A model generated the notes under the pieces. The model was not told the DNA's origin. It made no database searches and saw only the letters and a program-made list of their open reading frames with translations. A DNA stretch of 27,827 bases, from the IMG/VR virus record IMGVR_UViG_3300042892_004880, positions 1-27,827 of that record; one strand, 5' to 3'. Shown here in pieces: positions 3,300-22,106 of this stretch (within the stretch, counting starts at the first letter, position 1; every line of letters starts with the position of its first letter). This stretch comes from a virus. The translations under genes and the position numbers were made by a program.

Positions 3300-3317
3300 A
3301 AAGTATATATTAAAATA

Positions 3318-4784: not shown

Positions 4785-4796
4785 TTTAATATATAA
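4785..4796 (+). promoter_or_regulatory. Late-type promoter box for gene at 4818
   Basis: The sequence TTTAATATATAA ends 21 bases before the ATG. It matches the TAATATATA element found at similar distances before the structural genes in this window. T4-type late promoters have only a -10-like A/T box. Confidence 0.45.
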
Positions 4797-4817: not shown

Positions 4818-5162
4818 ATGAGACACATAAAAACATTTGAAAGCTATTCAGTAAATGAAGAAGAAGGAATAAGAAAATTCTTCACTGGACATGACTCATC
4901 GGAAGATAGAGATAAAGCAATGATTGAATTTACTAAATCTTTAGATGAAGCTGAAGCTGATGTGAATAAAAAACCTGAACAATATGTATTCAATAAAGAA
5001 GCTTTATTAAAAGCAGCATCTGAGAATAACTACTTAGGTGGATTAAGAATACAAGTTGGTGGTAGAGATAAAAGCAGATATTATGTTGTTTATGATCCAA
5101 AATCAACAGGTTGGAATAATTTAACATCCGCTGCGGGTGGATCACAACCATTTAGACAATAA
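4818..5162 (+). CDS. Putative internal head protein with capsid-targeting-like N-terminus
   Basis: A 114-residue product. It begins MRHIKTFESYSVNEEEG, which fits the pattern M-(K/R)-x-h-K-x-F-x-x-h-x-E shared with proteins starting at 11119, 12893 and 22106. T4 internal proteins carry a comparable peptide (MKTYQEFIAE) that directs them into the prohead and is cut by gp21. The V-N-E here would be the cleavage point. The rest is a soluble alpha/beta protein (ALLKAASENNYLGGLRIQVGG, RYYVVYDP) with no known family. It has its own late-type box and a strong terminator behind it. Packaging is inferred from the N-terminus only. Confidence 0.6.
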   Translation: MRHIKTFESYSVNEEEGIRKFFTGHDSSEDRDKAMIEFTKSLDEAEADVNKKPEQYVFNKEALLKAASENNYLGGLRIQVGGRDKSRYYVVYDPKSTGWNNLTSAAGGSQPFRQ

Positions 5163-7297: not shown

Positions 7298-7309
7298 TTT
7301 AATATATAA
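7298..7309 (+). promoter_or_regulatory. Late-type promoter box for gene at 7329
   Basis: TTTAATATATAA, identical to the box at 4785, ends 19 bases before the ATG at 7329. Confidence 0.45.
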
Positions 7310-10681: not shown

Positions 10682-11119
10682 TTAAAAAGGTGTGTTACTA
10701 TCACCTAAACCATCTCCATAGTAAAAACTAAATGTAAGCATTGGTAGACCTTTCTTATCTTCCCATAAATCAAATTCAGAATCATATTGAGCTAGAATAT
10801 CTTTTTTCAATTTATTAGCAACACTAAAGATACTAATAACATCTCTAAGACGTTCTTTTTGATTAAGCATTGCAACTATTTGAATGTCTCCATTATCACT
10901 AGTAACAGTAACATCTATACCAACATTTCTAAACATCTCTCTAAGTAGATATTCTAAATGAGCCATATCATCTTGATTACCATTATCGTCAGAATCATCA
11001 TCATCTGAGTTTAATTTATCATATCCTTCATCTTCATAGTCATCATCATCATCATCATATCCATCGATATAATCGAATCCTTCGCGTTCAAATAGTTGGT
11101 TAAATTTTTTCAGTTTCAT
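10682..11119 (-). CDS. Acidic protein with capsid-targeting-like N-terminus (145 aa)
   Basis: The product begins MKLKKFNQLFEREG, which fits the N-terminal motif shared with the proteins starting at 4818, 12893 and 22106; L-F-E would be the protease site (T4 gp21 cuts after (I/L)-x-E). Residues 16-50 are extremely acidic (GYDDDDDDYEDEGYDKL, then a second Asp run). The C-terminal 90 residues form an alpha/beta domain with VDVTVTSDNGDIQIVAML-type strands. The acidic segment could mimic nucleic acid or bind basic partners. Its ATG overlaps the stop of the peptidase gene by one base (TAATG), so translation is coupled. The tmRNA gene starts 73 bases after its stop, on the same strand but with its own promoter. 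Function unknown. Confidence 0.65.
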   Translation of the reverse strand: MKLKKFNQLFEREGFDYIDGYDDDDDDYEDEGYDKLNSDDDDSDDNGNQDDMAHLEYLLREMFRNVGIDVTVTSDNGDIQIVAMLNQKERLRDVISIFSVANKLKKDILAQYDSEFDLWEDKKGLPMLTFSFYYGDGLGDSNTPF

Positions 11120-12468
11120 TATTTCAATTCTATTTTTATATAGTAACCATCAAAGAAAACATCTTGATTGATTTTATGTCTATTTAATATAACTTGTAAA
11201 TCTGTAAGTGATCGAAAAGCACTTTCTATATCACTATCTTCCATATCACATTGTATAGAAACACCACCACCTTGTTCACCGACAACTTTAATATCTAAAT
11301 CAAAAGGAGATTGTTTTAAGTCATTTATTAATTTACCATGTCTTCTAATAACATCATCATCCAATCCAATCTTTCTAACAGTTGGTAATGAATTCCAATT
11401 TACTTTAATACTAGCTTCTGCTAAACTTTTCAAATAAGTCATATTTTGATACTCATCACCAGTATGCTCATTAAAATAACCTACTGATATATTAGTACAT
11501 TCTGGAATTTGGTCAATAAATGAAGCCGAATCTGTGTAAATACCTGTAGGATCTAGTGATAAATTAAGTCCATTCTTATTATATTGCTCACATAAAGCTG
11601 TTCCAAAATCATTTGAACAACAAACTCTACCCATTTGCTGAGTAATAACTGAATGATAATTTCTTCTATCAAAAGAAACGCATCTTTTAATGTTCTTTAG
11701 GTAATCAACTTGTTCATAAACAGATGATAATAAACCTGAACCAATACCACCTCTTTCTTCTCCAATAAAGAAGTAATAAAGACCCGGTACATTATGAGCC
11801 ATCATATATAACATAACAGCGACTCCTGATTTATCATCAGAACCTAATATAGAATTACCATCTGTAACAATATATTCTTCTTCTTTTTCAATCATTGAAT
11901 AAAGTTTAGTTATCTTTTGTGCTCTATCAGCAGTATCTAAGTGAGATGTAAACATAGTTTCTTGTTTAGGATCTCCAATTATTTTATAATAATTACCAAC
12001 TGTATCTTTTTCTAACTTAGGAAGAAATTGTAAAACTTCATCTTCGTGGCCATGTGGATATGTTTTAGTAACCAATGATAAGAAAGTACTTCTAACATCT
12101 TTAGGCTTATAAACAAAATCTTCAGGTTTAATAAGATTACCATCAATTGGTTCACCATTTTTAGTAGAATTATAAATTCTAATAAACTGTTTAACATCAG
12201 CAGGTGATAATAAATTCTTAAAATAGTATTGAATAAACTTTTCAATTTTCATAGGCACTACTTTACCATCTATAGTAACATCAAATGAACCAGATGTCTC
12301 TGAAACATCAACACTACTTATTTTTAGACCATTGAAGTATTTAGCGCCACTTTCATTTAACCAAAGAAGTTCAAATGCAACATAATTGTTATCATCTTCT
12401 AAGTCTTTAAGAATAGATTCTAGTTCTTTAGTATAAGTTACTCTAATTGATTCTTTTTCTTCTGCCAT
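11119..12468 (-). CDS. Zinc metallopeptidase of the M20/M28/M42 type
   Basis: A 449-residue product. Residues 126-350 carry the co-catalytic zinc peptidase pattern in order: FTSHLDTAD (His176, Asp178), ILGSDDKSG (Asp211, bridging), FFIGEERGGIGS (Glu237 base, Glu238 ligand), a SFDRRN Asp (267), and VGYFNEHTGDEY (His335). These enzymes are aminopeptidases or dipeptidases acting on peptide N-termini. Residues 1-120 and the last about 90 residues are outside the peptidase core; the latter (VVGEQGGGVSIQCDMEDSD) may be a substrate or oligomer domain. All five metal ligands appear intact, so it should be active. It follows a late-type box and is coupled to the acidic protein downstream. The substrate is unknown; peptide recycling or processing of cleaved head peptides is speculation. 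Confidence 0.85.
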   Translation of the reverse strand: MAEEKESIRVTYTKELESILKDLEDDNNYVAFELLWLNESGAKYFNGLKISSVDVSETSGSFDVTIDGKVVPMKIEKFIQYYFKNLLSPADVKQFIRIYNSTKNGEPIDGNLIKPEDFVYKPKDVRSTFLSLVTKTYPHGHEDEVLQFLPKLEKDTVGNYYKIIGDPKQETMFTSHLDTADRAQKITKLYSMIEKEEEYIVTDGNSILGSDDKSGVAVMLYMMAHNVPGLYYFFIGEERGGIGSGLLSSVYEQVDYLKNIKRCVSFDRRNYHSVITQQMGRVCCSNDFGTALCEQYNKNGLNLSLDPTGIYTDSASFIDQIPECTNISVGYFNEHTGDEYQNMTYLKSLAEASIKVNWNSLPTVRKIGLDDDVIRRHGKLINDLKQSPFDLDIKVVGEQGGGVSIQCDMEDSDIESAFRSLTDLQVILNRHKINQDVFFDGYYIKIELK

Positions 12469-12489: not shown

Positions 12490-12500
12490 GTATATATTAA
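12490..12500 (-). promoter_or_regulatory. Late-type promoter box for the peptidase gene
   Basis: Minus-strand TTAATATATAC ends 21 bases before the ATG at 12468. The same 14-base string TTAATATATACTAC recurs just upstream of the gene starting at 12893. Confidence 0.5.
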
Positions 12501-12503
12501 TTA

Positions 12504-12893
12504 TTAAACTACTATTTGATATGAATTAGTATAATCAACTTTAACTTGACCATCATTCATACCTGATTCTTTCTTTACAAATCTTTTTTGACAATAAACA
12601 ACAGTTGCTTTATCATCTTTAGAAGCTTTACTATTCTTTTTAGCCAATTGAGCTGCTGCTTTTATAATAGTTTCAGTGGGTAAGTTTTCTCTAACACGAA
12701 TAACAACGTGGCTACCCGGAGTTCCTTTAACGTGAAACCAAATATCTTCTTTATCAGCAACATTAAATGTTAAGTGGTCATTAGATTTAGCATCTTTACC
12801 AACATAAACAACAAATCCATCTATGTCCAATTTTTGAACATTTGGAAACTTATCTTTTTTACTTTCATTAAATGAATTAAATTTCTTTATCAT
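12504..12893 (-). CDS. Stand-alone NFACT-R domain protein (RqcH-type RNA-binding domain)
   Basis: A 129-residue product. Residues 24-120 match the NFACT-R (DUF814) domain: DGFVVYVGKDAKSNDHLTF, then DKEDIWFHVKGTPGSHVVIR, a helix IIKAAAQLAKKNSKASKDDKATVVY, and KKESGMNDGQVKVDY. The G-x-(N/D)-A-x-x-N-D-x-L-T, D-x-W-x-H-x-x-x-x-P-G-S-H-V and V-K-K-x-x-G motifs are diagnostic. In bacterial RqcH this domain works with NFACT-N and a coiled coil in ribosome-associated quality control (alanine tailing on obstructed large subunits); those parts are absent. Stand-alone NFACT-R proteins exist in archaea and eukaryotes. The N-terminus (MIKKFNSFNESKKDK) matches the capsid-targeting-like motif, with F-N-E as possible cut site. 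A TTAATATATAC box lies only 6 bases upstream of the ATG. Confidence 0.9.
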   Translation of the reverse strand: MIKKFNSFNESKKDKFPNVQKLDIDGFVVYVGKDAKSNDHLTFNVADKEDIWFHVKGTPGSHVVIRVRENLPTETIIKAAAQLAKKNSKASKDDKATVVYCQKRFVKKESGMNDGQVKVDYTNSYQIVV

Positions 12894-12928
12894 ATAGTAG
12901 TATATATTAATTAGAAATTCTTTAAAAA

Positions 12929-12955
12929 GAAAAAAGACCCATAAGGGTCTTTTTT
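12929..12955 (-). terminator. Terminator after the major capsid gene
   Basis: Stem AAAAAGACCC / GGGTCTTTTT with loop ATAA. It lies 24 bases after the capsid stop codon, in the gap before the NFACT-R gene. Confidence 0.85.
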
Positions 12956-12978
12956 CAATATTAGCAATAAAACTATTA

Positions 12979-14646
12979 TTAGTTTAATAACTGAGCAGCG
13001 TCAGTAACTGTAATAGTCATGTATTGTTTTTGTGGGTACCAACCAACTTCAGTTACAGCGTATCTTGAACGTAACAACATTCTTGGAGCGAATGTAGCTT
13101 CAGAGATAACTGAGATAGACTGAGCCATTAAATAAGGTACGAAAATGATACCTGGTTGGTCAGGGTTGTTCTTACGACCTAATACGATTCTGTTATCGTT
13201 ATATCTCATATATGGATCTACATAGATAGAGATGTCTCCGATTGAACCTACAGGGTATAATTGACCTTGTCCGTTTAATTTAGATTTAGTCGGGTTAATT
13301 GTGTAACCAGCGATATCTTGAAGTGCTGCAGCTAAACCTCCGTTTGTGATAAGGTATTGAGCAGGACCTACACGACCTTCAGTAGCGATGTAGTTAGAAG
13401 CGTGAGCAATCTTAGTGATTAACTTACGTTGTACAGCGTGAGTAGTCTCACCACCTAATGAACCAGAAGCAGCATAAGCTGTATTTAAGTCGAAGATAGT
13501 TAAACCACCACCAACTGTAGATAAAGGAGCTGTAGTAGCGTTTAATGCACCCATTTCGAAAATCTTAGCAACAATTTGTTTAGAGATTGTTTGAGATAAT
13601 TCGTTAACAAGGATAGACTCCATTTTTTGAACGATATCCATACCTGTATTAGCTTTGATATCTTCAATTTCAGTTCTTCTAAGAGCTGAAGATACTTCAA
13701 TAGTACCAACTGCAACAGTTTTAGAAGAAATTTTTGGTCCGATAACACCAGCATATGATTGATCATCAGCAAGACGACCCATTGGGTATTGACCAGCAGC
13801 TTGACCAGAAGCAGCAGATGTCCAGTTTGCAGAGAAACCTGGGATATGATCTTCTAATGCAGATACTAATGTAATTGTTTTATTAGCATTTGCTGTTGGT
13901 GTAACACCAGCAATTCTTAAAATTAAGCTAGTCATTGCAGTATTTTGGTCAAATGTGTTTAATGTAGCGTCAAAATAAGAAGCGCCATAGTTACCTGTTG
14001 TATTAGCTTGTCTGAAAGCTCTAAACATTGGTAAAGCATCAATACGAGAGAAACCTAAAAACTCAATTATGTCTGTTTTAGTACCAGGCTCAGTTTTAGT
14101 TGCAACAGCTGAAGAAGCTGTAATACCGTAGAACATTCTACCACCTGATAAACCACCTGTAGTTAAAGTGATACTATTTGAAAGTAAAGAAGCTGTGATA
14201 CCAGCTGCAATAGCAGTATTGTTATCAGCACTAAATTTGAAAACTAGTGGTCTTTCGCTTGTTGTTTGATCGATATCATCGTATTGAAAATCAATGTATA
14301 ATAAATCGATTTTTGGACCTGGAGTTGGTTTAACAGCTACTAAATCTAAACCGATTGTTTGAGCTGCGATTTTCATTGCTACAGGAAGTAAGTTTTGACC
14401 TACATCTCCTGAACCTGCTACGTTACTGTTACCAGTTACGTTACCAGCTAATGTACCAACAACTGGATTTAATATTGCACCCATACCGGCTACGTTTGAT
14501 GCGTTTACATACGCATTTTCATTGATTGAGTGGTATTCAGCCATTTCTGACATCCAGTCCAATCTTTCTTCACTTACACCCATGTTCTCTAAAACTGGAG
14601 ACCACTTCTTAAGCGCTTTTGATTTGTCTATTCTAATATGTGACAT
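12979..14646 (-). CDS. Major capsid protein, T4 gp23-like
   Basis: A 555-residue product that would form the hexamers of the phage head. The N-terminus (KALKKWSPVLENMGVSEERLDW) matches the start of gp23-type proteins (LLxKWxPxLE). A propeptide cleavage site is visible at YHSINE-NAYVNAS (after Glu43), of the h-N-E type expected for the gp21-like protease next door. The C-terminal third has the family pattern VGPAQYLITNGGLAAAL, VGSIGDISIYVDPYMRYNDNRIVLGR, IIFVPYLMAQSISV and a final LRSRYAVTEVGWYP. Length is within the gp23 range (T4: 521). Codon use is more G/C-rich than in neighbours, as expected for the most highly expressed gene. It is preceded by a late-type box and followed by a strong terminator. 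Confidence 0.93.
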   Translation of the reverse strand: MSHIRIDKSKALKKWSPVLENMGVSEERLDWMSEMAEYHSINENAYVNASNVAGMGAILNPVVGTLAGNVTGNSNVAGSGDVGQNLLPVAMKIAAQTIGLDLVAVKPTPGPKIDLLYIDFQYDDIDQTTSERPLVFKFSADNNTAIAAGITASLLSNSITLTTGGLSGGRMFYGITASSAVATKTEPGTKTDIIEFLGFSRIDALPMFRAFRQANTTGNYGASYFDATLNTFDQNTAMTSLILRIAGVTPTANANKTITLVSALEDHIPGFSANWTSAASGQAAGQYPMGRLADDQSYAGVIGPKISSKTVAVGTIEVSSALRRTEIEDIKANTGMDIVQKMESILVNELSQTISKQIVAKIFEMGALNATTAPLSTVGGGLTIFDLNTAYAASGSLGGETTHAVQRKLITKIAHASNYIATEGRVGPAQYLITNGGLAAALQDIAGYTINPTKSKLNGQGQLYPVGSIGDISIYVDPYMRYNDNRIVLGRKNNPDQPGIIFVPYLMAQSISVISEATFAPRMLLRSRYAVTEVGWYPQKQYMTITVTDAAQLLN

Positions 14647-14724: not shown

Positions 14725-16845
14725 TTAGATGTTTTTGAATCTTTCCATAATTGCAGTAACGTCATTATCAGAAAGTTTATCTTCTTGTATTAAACTTTCA
14801 TGAGCTACTAACTTTTTAGTTACAGATTCATTTGTTTTAAGCTTTCTAGTTAACCAGAAATGCTCAACTTGTGATTCAGTCATTAAAACATCAGCTGGGT
14901 AAAGTCTAGCTTGTGATAAGATAGATTTTTTAGCAGATTCGTTCATTTGACTCCAGATAGCCTTAGTGTTTTCAGGCATTAATCTGATTACTCTTTCTTC
15001 AAGAGATTCATTCTTTGTTGATAGTGCTTCAGAGATTAGACCCAACACATCTTTAGATGTGAAGTAACTTCTTTCGTTTATGTGAAGTTTTACATTGTCT
15101 TGTTCTTCGTTTGTTAAAGCATAATAACTATCTACTTGAGACTTGTTTAAGAATTTTAAGAAATTCAAGTCTGATGTTTCAGAAACTTTACGTTTTTTAG
15201 CTTCTTCTATTAATTTGTCGATTGACTCAGATAATTCAGAATCACTGTTACCAGTTACTTTATAATCATGAGCTTCTTCTTCATTTTCATTTTCTTCTTC
15301 AGTTGAATTAGGACCACAGTCTTCATCTTCTTCTTTATTATAATTTTCTTCTTCGTAAGATGAAGGAACACCATTGTATTCTTCTTCATTTTCTTCTTCA
15401 TTTTCATTTTCATTTTCTTCCATGTTTTCAAAACCAGCAGCTTGTAATGAAGGGAAAGCTTCTTCTTCACCAAATGCCTCATTTAATTTACCAGAATTTA
15501 ATTTTTCAACTATTAATCCTTGGTAGTTAATTGATTTGTCTAGGTTCTCAGCGATATACTCAGAATAAGCAATATTGTCATCTAAATGTTCAGCAATGTA
15601 TTCAGAGTAAGCGATGTTACCTTCAACATGTTCAGCTAAATATTCAGAATAAGCGATTGAATTATCAACGTGTTCAGCGATATACTCACCGTAAGCAATA
15701 CTTTTGTCTAAGTTTTCAGCGATGTACTCAGAGTAAGCGATGTTTTTATCAAGATTTTCAGCTAAATATTCTGAATACTCAATGTTTTTATCTAAATTCT
15801 CAGCTAAATACTCAGAATAAGAAATGTTTTTATCTAAATTCTCAGCGATATACTCAGAATAAGAAATGTTTTTATCAAGATTTTCAGCTAAGTACTCAGC
15901 GTACTCAATGTTCTTGTCTAAATTTTCAGCTAAATACTCAGAGTAGTTAACAGCTTTTTCAAGACTTTCAGCTAAATAGTCATTGTGTTTGATAAGTTTA
16001 TTAGTTGTTTCTTTTAAAGATTTGTTTTCATTAACCATAATTGAGAATTTCTCAGCTAAGTAATCTAAATATTTAACAACTTGAGAGTTTGTAGTATTTA
16101 ACTCTTCATAGTATTCTAATAATTGCTCTAATTTCTTAGGACTCATATTGCCTTTAGAAATTGCGCCTTTAACTTCTTTTTGTGTAGAAGCTAGTTCCTT
16201 AACTAAATACTGAGAGTATTCAGTTAATTGTTCTTTAGTAACAAATTCATTTTTATTCATATTAAATAATTCATTTATTTTTGACTCATCGGACATTTCG
16301 TATATCCTAAAGTTGGAGTTTTCATTATAACCTAATGACTCATTAAGAGATTTGATACTCATTTTAGCTGAAGCAAAACCTGGGTCAGCAACGATATCAT
16401 ATGTAAATAATTTCTTTAATGAAACAGTACCATCTGATTCAGTGATACCTGCAGCTCTTGAAGAAACGAATACTGGACATCCATCATCAACTAATGATTT
16501 AGCCTCTTTTCCCCAATAAGTATTTAATAATTTAATCTCACCACTAACAAGATTTGATTCTTTTACATAAGTAGCTTTTGTGATTATGTGTGATGCTCTT
16601 GAAAGAGATGTATCAAATACATCCGGGTGATCGAATTCACCATAAACAGCACCAAGACTGCTCATTCTCTCATTAAGTTCTTGAAGAGCTGGAAGAAATT
16701 TATCAGCTGTGTAAACTCTTTCGTTACGGTTTTTAACACCAAACTCAGTGAATGTACCATTCATGATATAATCTTTCTTACCTGAACCATTATTCTCTCT
16801 GATAAGAGAGTTTGTCGAATTTTCTACAATTAAAACTGGTTTCAT
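14725..16845 (-). CDS. Prohead protease fused to a repetitive scaffold region (gp21/gp22-like)
   Basis: A 706-residue product. Residues 25-170 are the serine prohead protease: NGTFTEFGVKNRNERVYT, catalytic His73 in GEFDHPD, catalytic Ser128 or Ser129 in PVFVSSRAAG, and DIVADPGF. The His-to-Ser spacing of 55 matches what I recall for T4 gp21. Residues 287-440 are eleven 14-residue repeats of the type (Y)SEYLAENLDKNI(A/S/E), a coiled-coil scaffold-like rod. Residues 474-525 are very acidic (Glu/Asn runs), followed by a helical C-terminus. In T4 the protease (212 aa) and scaffold gp22 are separate. Possible self-cleavage sites of h-N-E type occur at SLNE (169), VNE (273), KLNE (456) and HINE. 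It lies directly upstream of the capsid gene, behind its own late box. Antisense frames over the repeat are shadows. Confidence 0.9.
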   Translation of the reverse strand: MKPVLIVENSTNSLIRENNGSGKKDYIMNGTFTEFGVKNRNERVYTADKFLPALQELNERMSSLGAVYGEFDHPDVFDTSLSRASHIITKATYVKESNLVSGEIKLLNTYWGKEAKSLVDDGCPVFVSSRAAGITESDGTVSLKKLFTYDIVADPGFASAKMSIKSLNESLGYNENSNFRIYEMSDESKINELFNMNKNEFVTKEQLTEYSQYLVKELASTQKEVKGAISKGNMSPKKLEQLLEYYEELNTTNSQVVKYLDYLAEKFSIMVNENKSLKETTNKLIKHNDYLAESLEKAVNYSEYLAENLDKNIEYAEYLAENLDKNISYSEYIAENLDKNISYSEYLAENLDKNIEYSEYLAENLDKNIAYSEYIAENLDKSIAYGEYIAEHVDNSIAYSEYLAEHVEGNIAYSEYIAEHLDDNIAYSEYIAENLDKSINYQGLIVEKLNSGKLNEAFGEEEAFPSLQAAGFENMEENENENEEENEEEYNGVPSSYEEENYNKEEDEDCGPNSTEEENENEEEAHDYKVTGNSDSELSESIDKLIEEAKKRKVSETSDLNFLKFLNKSQVDSYYALTNEEQDNVKLHINERSYFTSKDVLGLISEALSTKNESLEERVIRLMPENTKAIWSQMNESAKKSILSQARLYPADVLMTESQVEHFWLTRKLKTNESVTKKLVAHESLIQEDKLSDNDVTAIMERFKNI
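15526..15987 (-). repeat. Eleven tandem 42-bp repeats within the protease-scaffold gene
   Basis: In-frame repeats coding a 14-residue unit with consensus YSEYLAENLDKNIx (residues 287-440). Units vary at synonymous positions and at L/I and N/H, so they are old duplications kept by selection. Hydrophobic residues at Y1, Y4, L5, L9 and I13 give a heptad-like spacing. Confidence 0.9.
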
Positions 16846-17426: not shown

Positions 17427-19307
17427 ATGATAGAATTAAAAGAAGGTGATGTTTACGAAGGACAAATTGAGTTCTCAACAAGCGGTAACGCATCACTAGT
17501 AATAAACGAGAAAGAGATTTTCGTTTACAAGAAAAACACGACTAACTCACTACACTTAGATAAAGTAAAAGTTCAGATATTCAAAGCTGAAAAGAAGTTA
17601 GAAGGAAAAGTTATTGAAGTTATTTCAAGATTTAAAACAGAGTTTGTTGGAAAAGTACAAATTGGGAAAAAAACTATATTCGTAGTTCCTGATAGTAATA
17701 AAATACCAGTTGATTTTTATATCAAAGGTGGATTAAAAGCAGAACACGACCAAAAAGTTGTAGTCGAGTTAATAAAGTGGGAAGATACAAAATCACCACA
17801 AGGAAAAATAATTAAAGTTTTAGGAGATTCTGGCGATAACAACGCTGAGATGAATTCAATTATGTTCGAATATGGACTACCTGTTGAATTTCCTCAAGAA
17901 GTTATTAACGAATCAATGTTAGTAGCAGAAGTTATTACCGAAAAGGAAATTTCTTCTCGTAAAGATATGAGAAGAGTTACTACTTTAACAATCGACCCTG
18001 TTGATGCTAAAGATTTTGACGATGCCCTTTCAGTTAATATAATAAGTGATAATAAAATTGAAGTAGGTGTTCACATTGCTGACGTAGGTCACTATGTTAA
18101 ACCAGGAACTAAGTTAGATGATGAAGCTTTCAAAAGAGCTACATCAGTATATTTAGTTGATAGGTGTGTACCAATGTTACCTGAAAGATTAAGTAATGGT
18201 ATTTGCTCATTAAAACCTCACGAAGATAGATTAGCTTTTTCTGTTATCTTTACTTTAGATGGAGATGGTAACATATTAAATACTTGGCAAGGTAAAACCG
18301 TTATTCACTCTGATAGAAGATTTGCTTATGAAGATGCACAAGAAATTATTGAAGGTACAGATGGTGATTATTCAACTGAAATTAGATTACTTGATACTTT
18401 AGCTAGAAAGATTAGAAAGAAAAGAATCAAAGAAGGTTCTATTGAAATGGGTGGTATTGAAGTCAAATTCAAACTAGCCGAAGATAATAAGAAACCAATT
18501 GGTGTTTATTTCAAAGAACAAAAAGAATCTAACAAGTTAATTGAAGAATTTATGTTATTGGCTAACAAGTCAGTTGCTAAAACTTTATCAGAAGCTAGTT
18601 GGGTAAATGTTTATAGAGTTCACGATACTCCAAATATGGAGAAGTTAAATGCTTTAGTTGGTGTTTGTAAAACTTTTGGATATGATATAGAGATATATGA
18701 TGATTCAACTGAGATTAAAAAATCACTTAATTCTTTATTAAAAGAAATTAAAGATACTCCTGAGGAAAATATGATTGAGACTTTAGTTACTAGATGTATG
18801 TCTAAGGCAACTTACACAATTAAGAACATTGGTCACTATGGTTTAGGATTTACTCACTATTCTCACTTTACTTCACCAATTAGAAGATATCCTGATTTAA
18901 TTACACATAGAATACTACTTGATTTCTTAGATAAGAAAACTCAAGGTAATCCTGGTAAGATTGAAGAACAAGCTAAATGGTGTTCTGCTAGAGAATTGGT
19001 AGCTGCTAAAGCCCAAAGAGATTCAATTAAATACAAACAAGCTGAATATCTTTTAGATAAGATTGGAAAAGTATTTGATGGTATCGTTTCAGGAGTAACT
19101 GATTGGGGTATGTATGTTGAATTGATTGAAAGTAAATGTGAAGGAATGGTTAGATACCAATCACTTGAAGGAAAATGGTCAGCTGATACAGCTAACTATA
19201 CAATAACAAGTGAAAATGGTGAGAAAATCAGATTAGGAGATCCTCTTAAAGTTGTAGTTAAGTCAGTAGACTTAGAAAGAAAACAAATAGATTTTACTTT
19301 ATTGTAA
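17427..19307 (+). CDS. rnr: Ribonuclease R (RNB-family 3'-5' exoribonuclease)
   Basis: A 626-residue enzyme that degrades RNA processively from the 3' end, including structured RNA. Residues 1-130 are OB/cold-shock-like. The RNB domain starts with LTIDPVDAKDFDDALS (catalytic-site Asp190, Asp196, Asp198, Asp199), followed by GVHIADVGHYV, SVYLVDRCVPMLPERLSNGICSL and, further on, HYGLGFTHYSHFTSPIRRYPDLITHR. The last 65 residues are an S1 domain (GKVFDGIVSGVTDWGMYVEL). It is shorter than E. coli RNase R (813) because the N-terminal HTH and the C-terminal basic tail are absent. In bacteria RNase R acts with tmRNA-SmpB to remove nonstop mRNA. The next gene starts on the base after its stop codon. 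It lies between the protease and portal genes on the opposite strand. Confidence 0.95.
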   Translation: MIELKEGDVYEGQIEFSTSGNASLVINEKEIFVYKKNTTNSLHLDKVKVQIFKAEKKLEGKVIEVISRFKTEFVGKVQIGKKTIFVVPDSNKIPVDFYIKGGLKAEHDQKVVVELIKWEDTKSPQGKIIKVLGDSGDNNAEMNSIMFEYGLPVEFPQEVINESMLVAEVITEKEISSRKDMRRVTTLTIDPVDAKDFDDALSVNIISDNKIEVGVHIADVGHYVKPGTKLDDEAFKRATSVYLVDRCVPMLPERLSNGICSLKPHEDRLAFSVIFTLDGDGNILNTWQGKTVIHSDRRFAYEDAQEIIEGTDGDYSTEIRLLDTLARKIRKKRIKEGSIEMGGIEVKFKLAEDNKKPIGVYFKEQKESNKLIEEFMLLANKSVAKTLSEASWVNVYRVHDTPNMEKLNALVGVCKTFGYDIEIYDDSTEIKKSLNSLLKEIKDTPEENMIETLVTRCMSKATYTIKNIGHYGLGFTHYSHFTSPIRRYPDLITHRILLDFLDKKTQGNPGKIEEQAKWCSARELVAAKAQRDSIKYKQAEYLLDKIGKVFDGIVSGVTDWGMYVELIESKCEGMVRYQSLEGKWSADTANYTITSENGEKIRLGDPLKVVVKSVDLERKQIDFTLL

Positions 19308-21541: not shown

Positions 21542-21554
21542 TTTATATATTAAA
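21542..21554 (-). promoter_or_regulatory. Late-type promoter box for the portal gene
   Basis: Minus-strand TTTAATATATAAA, about 21 bases before the ATG at 21520. Confidence 0.45.
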
Positions 21555-21632: not shown

Positions 21633-22106
21633 TTAATTATAAAATGTTCTTTGTATCAGTCTAAGATCCTCAGGATGTAAACCTGTTTCTTTTAAGTAAT
21701 TAACTAACTCATCCTGTGATTGAGTCAATGATATTATAGCTTTTTGGAATTTAACAACAGATTTTCTATCAATAAACTTATTACCATCTCTCCAGATTAT
21801 CTCACCTATATCAGAAACCGAACAACCAATTCTATGTGTGTTATTTCCAGAATGAAAAACAGCTTGTAGTGTCCATCCTTCTCCTGTTTTAAATATATCT
21901 AAACTTGTAAATTTAGCTTCTGGAAAAGGTTTTATATCACCAACCATAATACCAAATGTCATATCATCTACAACTTTTCTAGACATATTAACAGCGTGGT
22001 CTTTAACCTCTTTAGATCTAGATGTCTGACCAAAAGCAGAAAGTTTGTCAGCAGCACTCATATATGTTGAATAGTTTAGTTCTTCGAATTTTCTTAAATG
22101 TTTCAT
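21633..22106 (-). CDS. Putative internal head protein with capsid-targeting-like N-terminus (157 aa)
   Basis: The N-terminus MKHLRKFEELNYST fits the shared M-K-x-h-x-K-F-x-x-h motif of this window, although the cleavage glutamate position is less clear than in the others. The rest is a soluble alpha/beta domain (GDIKPFPEAKFTSLDIFKTGEGWTLQAVFH, then HRIGCSVSDIGEIIW) ending in helices. No family was recognised. It has its own late-type box 24 bases upstream of the ATG and a terminator behind it, so it forms a single-gene late unit. Packaging into the head is inference. Confidence 0.65.
   Translation of the reverse strand: MKHLRKFEELNYSTYMSAADKLSAFGQTSRSKEVKDHAVNMSRKVVDDMTFGIMVGDIKPFPEAKFTSLDIFKTGEGWTLQAVFHSGNNTHRIGCSVSDIGEIIWRDGNKFIDRKSVVKFQKAIISLTQSQDELVNYLKETGLHPEDLRLIQRTFYN

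Follow-up and report, generated by a model that had tools for sequence, protein, structure and literature searches.

A predicted capsid-targeted NFACT-R domain protein encoded beside the major capsid gene of megaphages

Phage T4 injects its internal protein IPI, which inhibits a nuclease of the host (PMC9958956, PMC5694885, PMC9391042). In RqcH, a bacterial ribosome quality-control factor, the NFACT-R domain is placed near the A-site finger, where it is poorly resolved (PMC8012679), and NFACT-N is described as reading tRNA-Ala (PMC8373112). Human CCDC25 is described as a membrane DNA sensor (PMC7445241), and ehv463 of an Emiliania huxleyi virus is listed as NFACT RNA-binding (PMC10222054). Searches of openly licensed literature (CC0, CC BY and CC BY-SA papers, including PMC8012679, PMC11633108 and PMC10222054) gave, by title or abstract, no phage NFACT-R protein, nothing on a stand-alone NFACT-R domain, no paper on RqcH and bacteriophages that deals with a phage NFACT-R, and no T4-type tags in huge phages. 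The locus described here lies in a 27,827-nt stretch of virus DNA (IMG/VR record IMGVR_UViG_3300042892_004880, positions 1 to 27,827), referred to below as the window. Its close phage relatives are the megaphages LR745206 (634,780 bp) and LR756502 (642,428 bp) and many metagenome contigs.

The gene of interest (bp 12504-12893, minus strand) is an ATG-to-stop open reading frame encoding a protein of 129 aa. A preliminary description made from the sequence, which named no strand, had taken this protein to be a free NFACT-R domain, and the identification is upheld: Pfam NFACT-R_1 (PF05670) matches with an E-value of 1.7e-17 and 64.4 bits, where the curated cut-off is 29.8, and its envelope covers residues 24-119 (bp 12537-12824, minus strand). 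Among PDB sequences, the matches are to RqcH NFACT-R (3.5e-16) and CCDC25 (1.7e-8). The protein carries the elements D-x-W-x-H ... PGSHVVI ... NSK ... VKK (residues 50-65, 87-89 and 106-108), of which D-I-W-F-H ... P-G-S-H-V (residues 50-63; bp 12705-12746, minus strand) is seen in the sequence and in alignments with RqcH and with the protein's own family. An AlphaFold2 model (pLDDT 89.7, pTM 0.82; residues 1-13 below 50) has the same fold as RqcH NFACT-R (Z 19.8, 2.0 Å over 111 residues) and is also close to CCDC25 (Z 16.6); unrelated folds reach at most Z 3.1. Neither of the two outcomes named beforehand as counting against the identification, a missing profile match or a deviating fold, came about.

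The domain stands alone, as had been claimed. The full RqcH/Rqc2 architecture is absent from this single-domain protein, which has no NFACT-N, HhH or coiled coil, and no NFACT_N domain (PF05833) was found in seven related phage records, including LR745206 and LR756502, which encode exactly one NFACT-R each; 11 of 14 control genomes match the same model. The NCBIfam match is to EfbA, a full-length model, whose C-terminal end the protein aligns with at a score far under the cut-off, as a lone domain should. PHROGs hold no family for it and PADLOC returned no match. The search for other stand-alone NFACT-R proteins in phages matched 13 phage records; in 4 of the 11 besides the two megaphages, the matching frames are 442-578 aa long and were rejected as RqcH/FbpA-length proteins. 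With the protein as query 25 viral loci were found, and with its alignment 75; together with a median dN/dS of 0.218 for the family (237 pairs), this indicates that the open reading frame is not a chance one. Median pair identity is 0.686 for the NFACT-R protein and 0.753 for the major capsid protein (351 pairs). The preliminary description, which saw little more here than an NFACT-R domain with its signature motifs, was right about the signature but overlooked residues 1-10, which resemble a capsid-targeting tag and proved more informative than any other part of the protein.

These residues (bp 12864-12893, minus strand) read MIKKFNSFNE and are followed by SKKDKFPN; based on a tag profile, the family alignment and the disorder in the model, they are predicted to form a T4-type capsid-targeting sequence (CTS) cut by the prohead protease after E10. 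The mature domain would have a mass of 13.4 kDa, a pI of 9.38 and a net charge of +6. A first crude pattern for such tags matched 100 of 865 ORFs in LR745206 and 118 of 894 in LR756502, chance matches included. The profile that replaced it spans 12 positions, was trained on LR756502 ORFs only, with T4 and the NFACT-R protein unseen, and calls a tag at a score of at least 10. In LR745206 it called a tag at 114 of 865 N-termini; among internal-methionine segments of the same proteins 4 of 2645 passed, so that 1.3 would be expected for 865. In the training genome the figures are 159 of 894 and 9 of 2909. Because the two megaphages have orthologs in common, this split is not fully independent; T4 is the independent test. 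Among 53 T4 proteins (of 73 CDS rows), IPIII (18.8), IPII (18.6) and IPI (14.8) rank as the top three, followed by gp24 (7.3), e.6 (6.9) and the remainder at ≤ 1.6, and the only 3 of 63 mechanical ORFs from the same T4 stretch to pass are these three. None passed among 68 ORFs of phage G or 75 ORFs around Bacteroidota RqcH genes. Known false positives are an SMC-like LR745206 protein and probably the window portal (10.4).

At 17.9, the NFACT-R protein has the highest score of the 33 window ORFs and falls within the range of the T4 internal proteins (14.8-18.8); a candidate cut site, SFNE followed by S, lies at the end of the putative tag, and the window encodes a protease of the cognate phrog_207 type. 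Several other window proteins begin alike, among them the products starting with MRHIKTFESYSVNE (bp 4818-5162, plus strand; score 13.7) and MKHLRKFEELN (bp 21633-22106, minus strand; 8.9). In tagged ORFs, serine follows the glutamate in 84 of 253 and I, F or L stands two residues before it in 178 of 253, an enrichment that is partly circular since the profile spans those positions, a flaw that does not affect the T4 test. The tag also agrees between orthologs: of 355 reciprocal-best pairs from the two megaphages, both partners carry it in 30, one partner in 29 and neither in 296 (p 1.7e-22).

The 75 viral loci yield 49 distinct family members, of which 38 score at least 10. Among the 11 below, five (L107, L108, L110, L133 and L164) continue the frame of an upstream domain and lack a promoter-like motif of their own, L152 is a fusion that starts with its own tag (6.5 at that start), and the others are L127, L161, L163, L165 and L169. 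The LR756502 ortholog begins with another domain, so that it scores 2.9, under the training threshold of 6; inside this longer protein it reads ...KENKIIKFDKFNEGKKDKFPN... and the site is retained. Close to the N-terminus, 49/49 members have a hydrophobic-(x)-E-[SGNK] site, and 47/49 have hydrophobic-x-E within the first 25 residues. E10 is the sole invariant column before residue 32 in a 38-row alignment that includes the cellular protein L095, whose glutamate may align by chance. The domain upstream of NFACT-R in the five in-frame loci and at LR756502:229253-229942 is acidic and about 110 aa long (MKYLLIE... or MKKYILV...). Between it and NFACT-R the fusions keep the tag-like cut site, at a place where no N-terminus is possible, as expected if the protein is cut there.

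The phage origin originally assigned to the stretch agrees with its neighbourhood, in which PHROG matches identify T4-type head genes: protease/scaffold, major capsid protein and portal. The major capsid gene (bp 12979-14646, minus strand; phrog_138, 7e-28) encodes a conserved SINE followed by NAYVN, kept in relatives; from its sequence, this point after residue 43 is likely the maturation site. The gp21-class head maturation protease (bp 14725-16845, minus strand) matches phrog_207 (1.3e-31) over residues 2-324 and has a scaffold-like C-terminal part. Ten 14-residue repeats of the form Y-x-E-Y-[LI]-A-E in this protein (bp 15544-15945, minus strand) are perhaps scaffold cut sites. The protease/scaffold repeats score below 3 by the tag profile, and their mimicry of the T4 tag, an impression only, was discarded. 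A 626-aa RNase R-like nuclease (phrog_13933, 7e-149) is encoded close to the head genes at bp 17427-19307 (plus strand). On the other side of the NFACT-R gene, a peptidase-like protein (bp 11119-12468, minus strand; phrog_4191, 1.7e-64) is the one that follows NFACT-R in most relatives, and by synteny an acidic tagged protein (bp 10682-11119, minus strand; 8.3) belongs to the same gene block.

The arrangement of capsid and NFACT-R genes was surveyed in the best 80 of 211 relatives found with the major capsid protein, 73 of which have at least 1000 nt downstream and could be judged. In 62 of these 73, the NFACT-R gene follows the capsid gene on the same strand, mostly 64-96 nt past the capsid stop. 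Of the 11 without it, L229, L237 and L246 hold a divergent ortholog and eight show inserted endonuclease-like ORFs or other genes. Endonuclease-like ORFs (RLRESYF) or similar inserts were observed just after the capsid gene in L261, L262, L265, L269, L280, L283 and L246.

Between the two genes lies a terminator-like hairpin (bp 12929-12956, minus strand), and a promoter-like motif, TTAATATATA, stands upstream of the NFACT-R start (bp 12901-12910, minus strand). In the general form T[AT]AATATATA, window sites are found there and at bp 12491-12500, 21544-21553 and 3304-3313 (minus strand) and 4786-4795 and 7299-7308 (plus strand), and the motif also precedes the portal and peptidase genes. In LR745206, 115 of 150 sites lie at most 60 nt before a same-strand ORF; the motif accompanies 40 of 114 tagged ORFs versus 70 of 751 untagged ones (p 1.3e-11). 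Exact sites precede 26 of the 49 NFACT-R family members, with near forms for most others. T[AT]AATATATA is probably a phage-specific promoter.

Approximately 13-18% of the mechanical ORFs of LR745206 (114/865) and of the training genome LR756502 (159/894) begin with a T4-type capsid-targeting-like tag, and T4 has three; a large injected proteome is a possible meaning of this set. Pfam gave few matches for the 114 tagged LR745206 proteins (21 family names, each on one protein, some names sharing one). The domains include an Rnl1-type RNA ligase, a CCA/poly(A)-polymerase type, a 2H phosphoesterase with RNase T, NUDIX, methyltransferase and wall-cutting domains, and NFACT-R. In the RNA ligase, polymerase-type and 2H proteins, the domain does not begin before residue 30, which fits a tag placed in front of it. 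The 2H protein (L051:8260-9573 of LR745206, minus strand) joins a phosphoesterase weakly like anti-CBASS Acb1 to an RNase T exonuclease domain. Both megaphages encode SmpB (LR745206:332958-333383, 6.8e-53; LR756502:367597-368013, 7.8e-50), untagged in LR756502, and dozens of tRNA genes each. ARAGORN found no tmRNA in the tiles of either genome, in which genes across tile borders could be missed, and neither genome has an S4 domain that would indicate the partner RqcP.

Divergent orthologs occupy the same slot after the capsid gene in several relatives. In L231, L225 and L243, DIWMH is kept and GTHLIIK replaces PGSHVVI, while L229, L237 and L246 have neither the DxWxH nor the PGSHV signature. 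Profile-profile comparison links the divergent sets stepwise to the family alignment A2 (A5-A6 8e-27, A6-A2 1e-24, A5-A2 2e-6), and a model of L229 (pLDDT 90.3) matches CCDC25 (3e-5) and RqcH (2e-4) above all else. Tag scores are 12.4 for L229, 10.0 for L237, 6.8 for L246, 10.3 for L231, 9.5 for L225 and 14.5 for L243. The signature-less orthologs thus keep tag and fold though the nucleic-acid face is lost. That tag and fold outlast the signature is evidence against a ribosomal target shared by all members and favours either retargeting or a structural role; it also argues against competition with RqcH as the only selected function.

In a tree built on 121 columns, the phage NFACT-R domains form one clade (support 97/92), whose sister (99/96) is L095, a protein of Bacteroidales bacterium UBA5342. 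L095 is an untagged stand-alone NFACT-R of 124 aa with chromosome-like neighbours, apart from the RqcH domains of Bacteroidota; the cellular genome scan that yielded it matched seven stretches and is not a census. Among 148 Bacteroidota genomes, 114 have NFACT-R: 112 frames of at least 492 aa, the stand-alone L095 and L182. The latter (135 aa), considered as a second cellular stand-alone copy, was rejected because a contig edge cuts its start and, in the tree, it falls among the full-length RqcH proteins of Bacteroidota. The simplest story is that a host stand-alone domain was captured and a tag added. A paper on huge phages assigns its five genomes above 634 kb to the Mahaphage clade, with predicted Bacteroidetes hosts (PMC7162821).

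With somewhat more confidence than doubt, we read the NFACT-R protein as a head protein that is packaged in the virion, ejected, and acts on the host ribosome or RNA. It would be an internal head protein of a megaphage, composed of a host-type NFACT-R domain and a T4-type CTS. Made alongside the head proteins, it would enter the prohead core by means of residues 1-10, which the gp21-like prohead protease would then remove with a cut after E10, leaving the basic domain in the filled head; the domain would then be ejected with the DNA into a new host, ahead of any phage gene expression. There its conserved face may bind ribosomal or tRNA surfaces, such as the 50S site of RqcH, and shift ribosome rescue in the phage's favour. 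Since NFACT-R lies near the A-site finger in RqcH and it is NFACT-N that reads tRNA-Ala, a free NFACT-R could occupy or shield the 50S subunit without tailing. Packaging and cleavage, which a structural role would share, are very probable on the strength of the sequence features; ejection, by analogy with T4, is fairly likely; action on ribosome or RNA is the most tentative of the three.

The tag, the capsid-gene neighbourhood and the promoter-like motif of head genes all point to a virion-packaged protein. For the full reading we count the tag score and the ranking of the T4 internal proteins, the gp21-class protease, the universal cut site, the capsid adjacency, the motif at tagged genes, the agreement of tags between orthologs, the disordered tag, the intact signature, the low dN/dS, the RNA-repair-type enzymes among tagged proteins and the SmpB genes. 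Against it we count the 11 members scoring below 10, the false positives of the profile and the signature-less, tagged L229, L237 and L246, which tell against a target on the ribosome that is essential. Unlike the accessory T4 internal proteins, the NFACT-R gene keeps a constant position next to that of the capsid, which fits a structural role too. In this main rival explanation, which we consider rather unlikely, the NFACT-R fold has been recruited for a basic protein of the head core that would bind the capsid or the packaged DNA, much as CCDC25 binds DNA, and would serve head assembly or DNA packing instead of acting in the host. The adjacency in 62 of 73 testable relatives (best 80 of 211), the basic mature domain, the closeness of the fold to CCDC25 in complex with DNA, the orthologs that have lost the RNA/ribosome signature and a conservation nearly like that of the capsid protein all suit it. 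However, most members retain the full ribosome-factor signature, which a structural part would not need, and 8 of the 73 seem to have no such gene at the capsid-adjacent place. In addition, T4 proteins with such a tag are injected effectors rather than structural proteins (PMC9391042, PMC9958956).

If instead the N-terminus were incidental, the protein could be made during infection and stay unpackaged in the cytoplasm, competing with host RqcH or serving as an RNA-binding cofactor, roles that were both proposed at first. The RqcH-type signature, the full-length NFACT-R proteins in 112 of 148 Bacteroidota genomes and the SmpB and many tRNA genes of the phages agree with this; yet the tag and cut site are kept throughout the family, in a gene that sits among head genes behind a promoter-like motif, and we regard the explanation as improbable. 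A further explanation is that the N-terminal motif is some other sorting signal, with a membrane or a replication compartment as conceivable destinations. The number of tagged proteins, more than 100 per megaphage genome, would favour it, and is to our knowledge far above any set of internal head proteins. But a profile blind to T4 singled out the T4 internal proteins alone among 53, the site fits a hydrophobic-x-E cut, and a gp21-class protease is encoded, so that this explanation appears very improbable. Returning to the packaged and ejected protein, we can go further only speculatively, in a proposal about which we are more doubtful than hopeful: the megaphage clade may pack its more than 100 tagged proteins for injection as a ready-made early proteome, including RNA-repair enzymes and a near-constant NFACT-R that seizes 50S subunits of the host, whether obstructed or free, ahead of any phage transcript.

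If the main reading is true, a ribosome-quality-control domain is delivered by the virion, and the protein ties a ribosome-rescue domain to virion delivery. The tag rule, checked on T4, predicts head entry for individual proteins among the hundreds of unknown ones in megaphages. Hypothetical proteins would thereby become candidate effectors whose injection can be tested, and megaphage injection becomes a question that virion proteomics can answer. The loss of the signature in tagged orthologs is a natural experiment on NFACT-R domain function.

Among known systems, T4 IPI, IPII and IPIII resemble the protein in their N-terminal tag of about 10 residues with a protease site, their small basic mature form and the gp21-class protease; they differ in that here the body is an NFACT-R domain, the gene adjoins that of the capsid and is present almost throughout the clade, and packaging and injection are predicted. 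RqcH, of the Rqc2/NEMF family, is alike in the sequence, fold and signature of its NFACT-R domain, whereas the phage protein has a putative capsid tag and no NFACT-N (absent also from the seven related phage records), HhH or coiled coil. CCDC25 likewise has a stand-alone NFACT-R of similar fold, but it is 27-29% identical and continues at the C-terminus: model residues 18-129 align to its residues 1-122, where the phage protein stops. Short NFACT-R proteins of large algal viruses are also similar, with BFVD models of 105-171 aa matching at E-values of 1e-6 to 6e-10; from their accessions we take these to be viruses of eukaryotic algae, and ehv463 differs in the same way, coming from a virus of a eukaryotic alga. 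The cellular L095 shares with the phage protein the single domain and is sister to the phage clade; unlike the phage protein, it has no tag and sits among chromosome-like neighbours.
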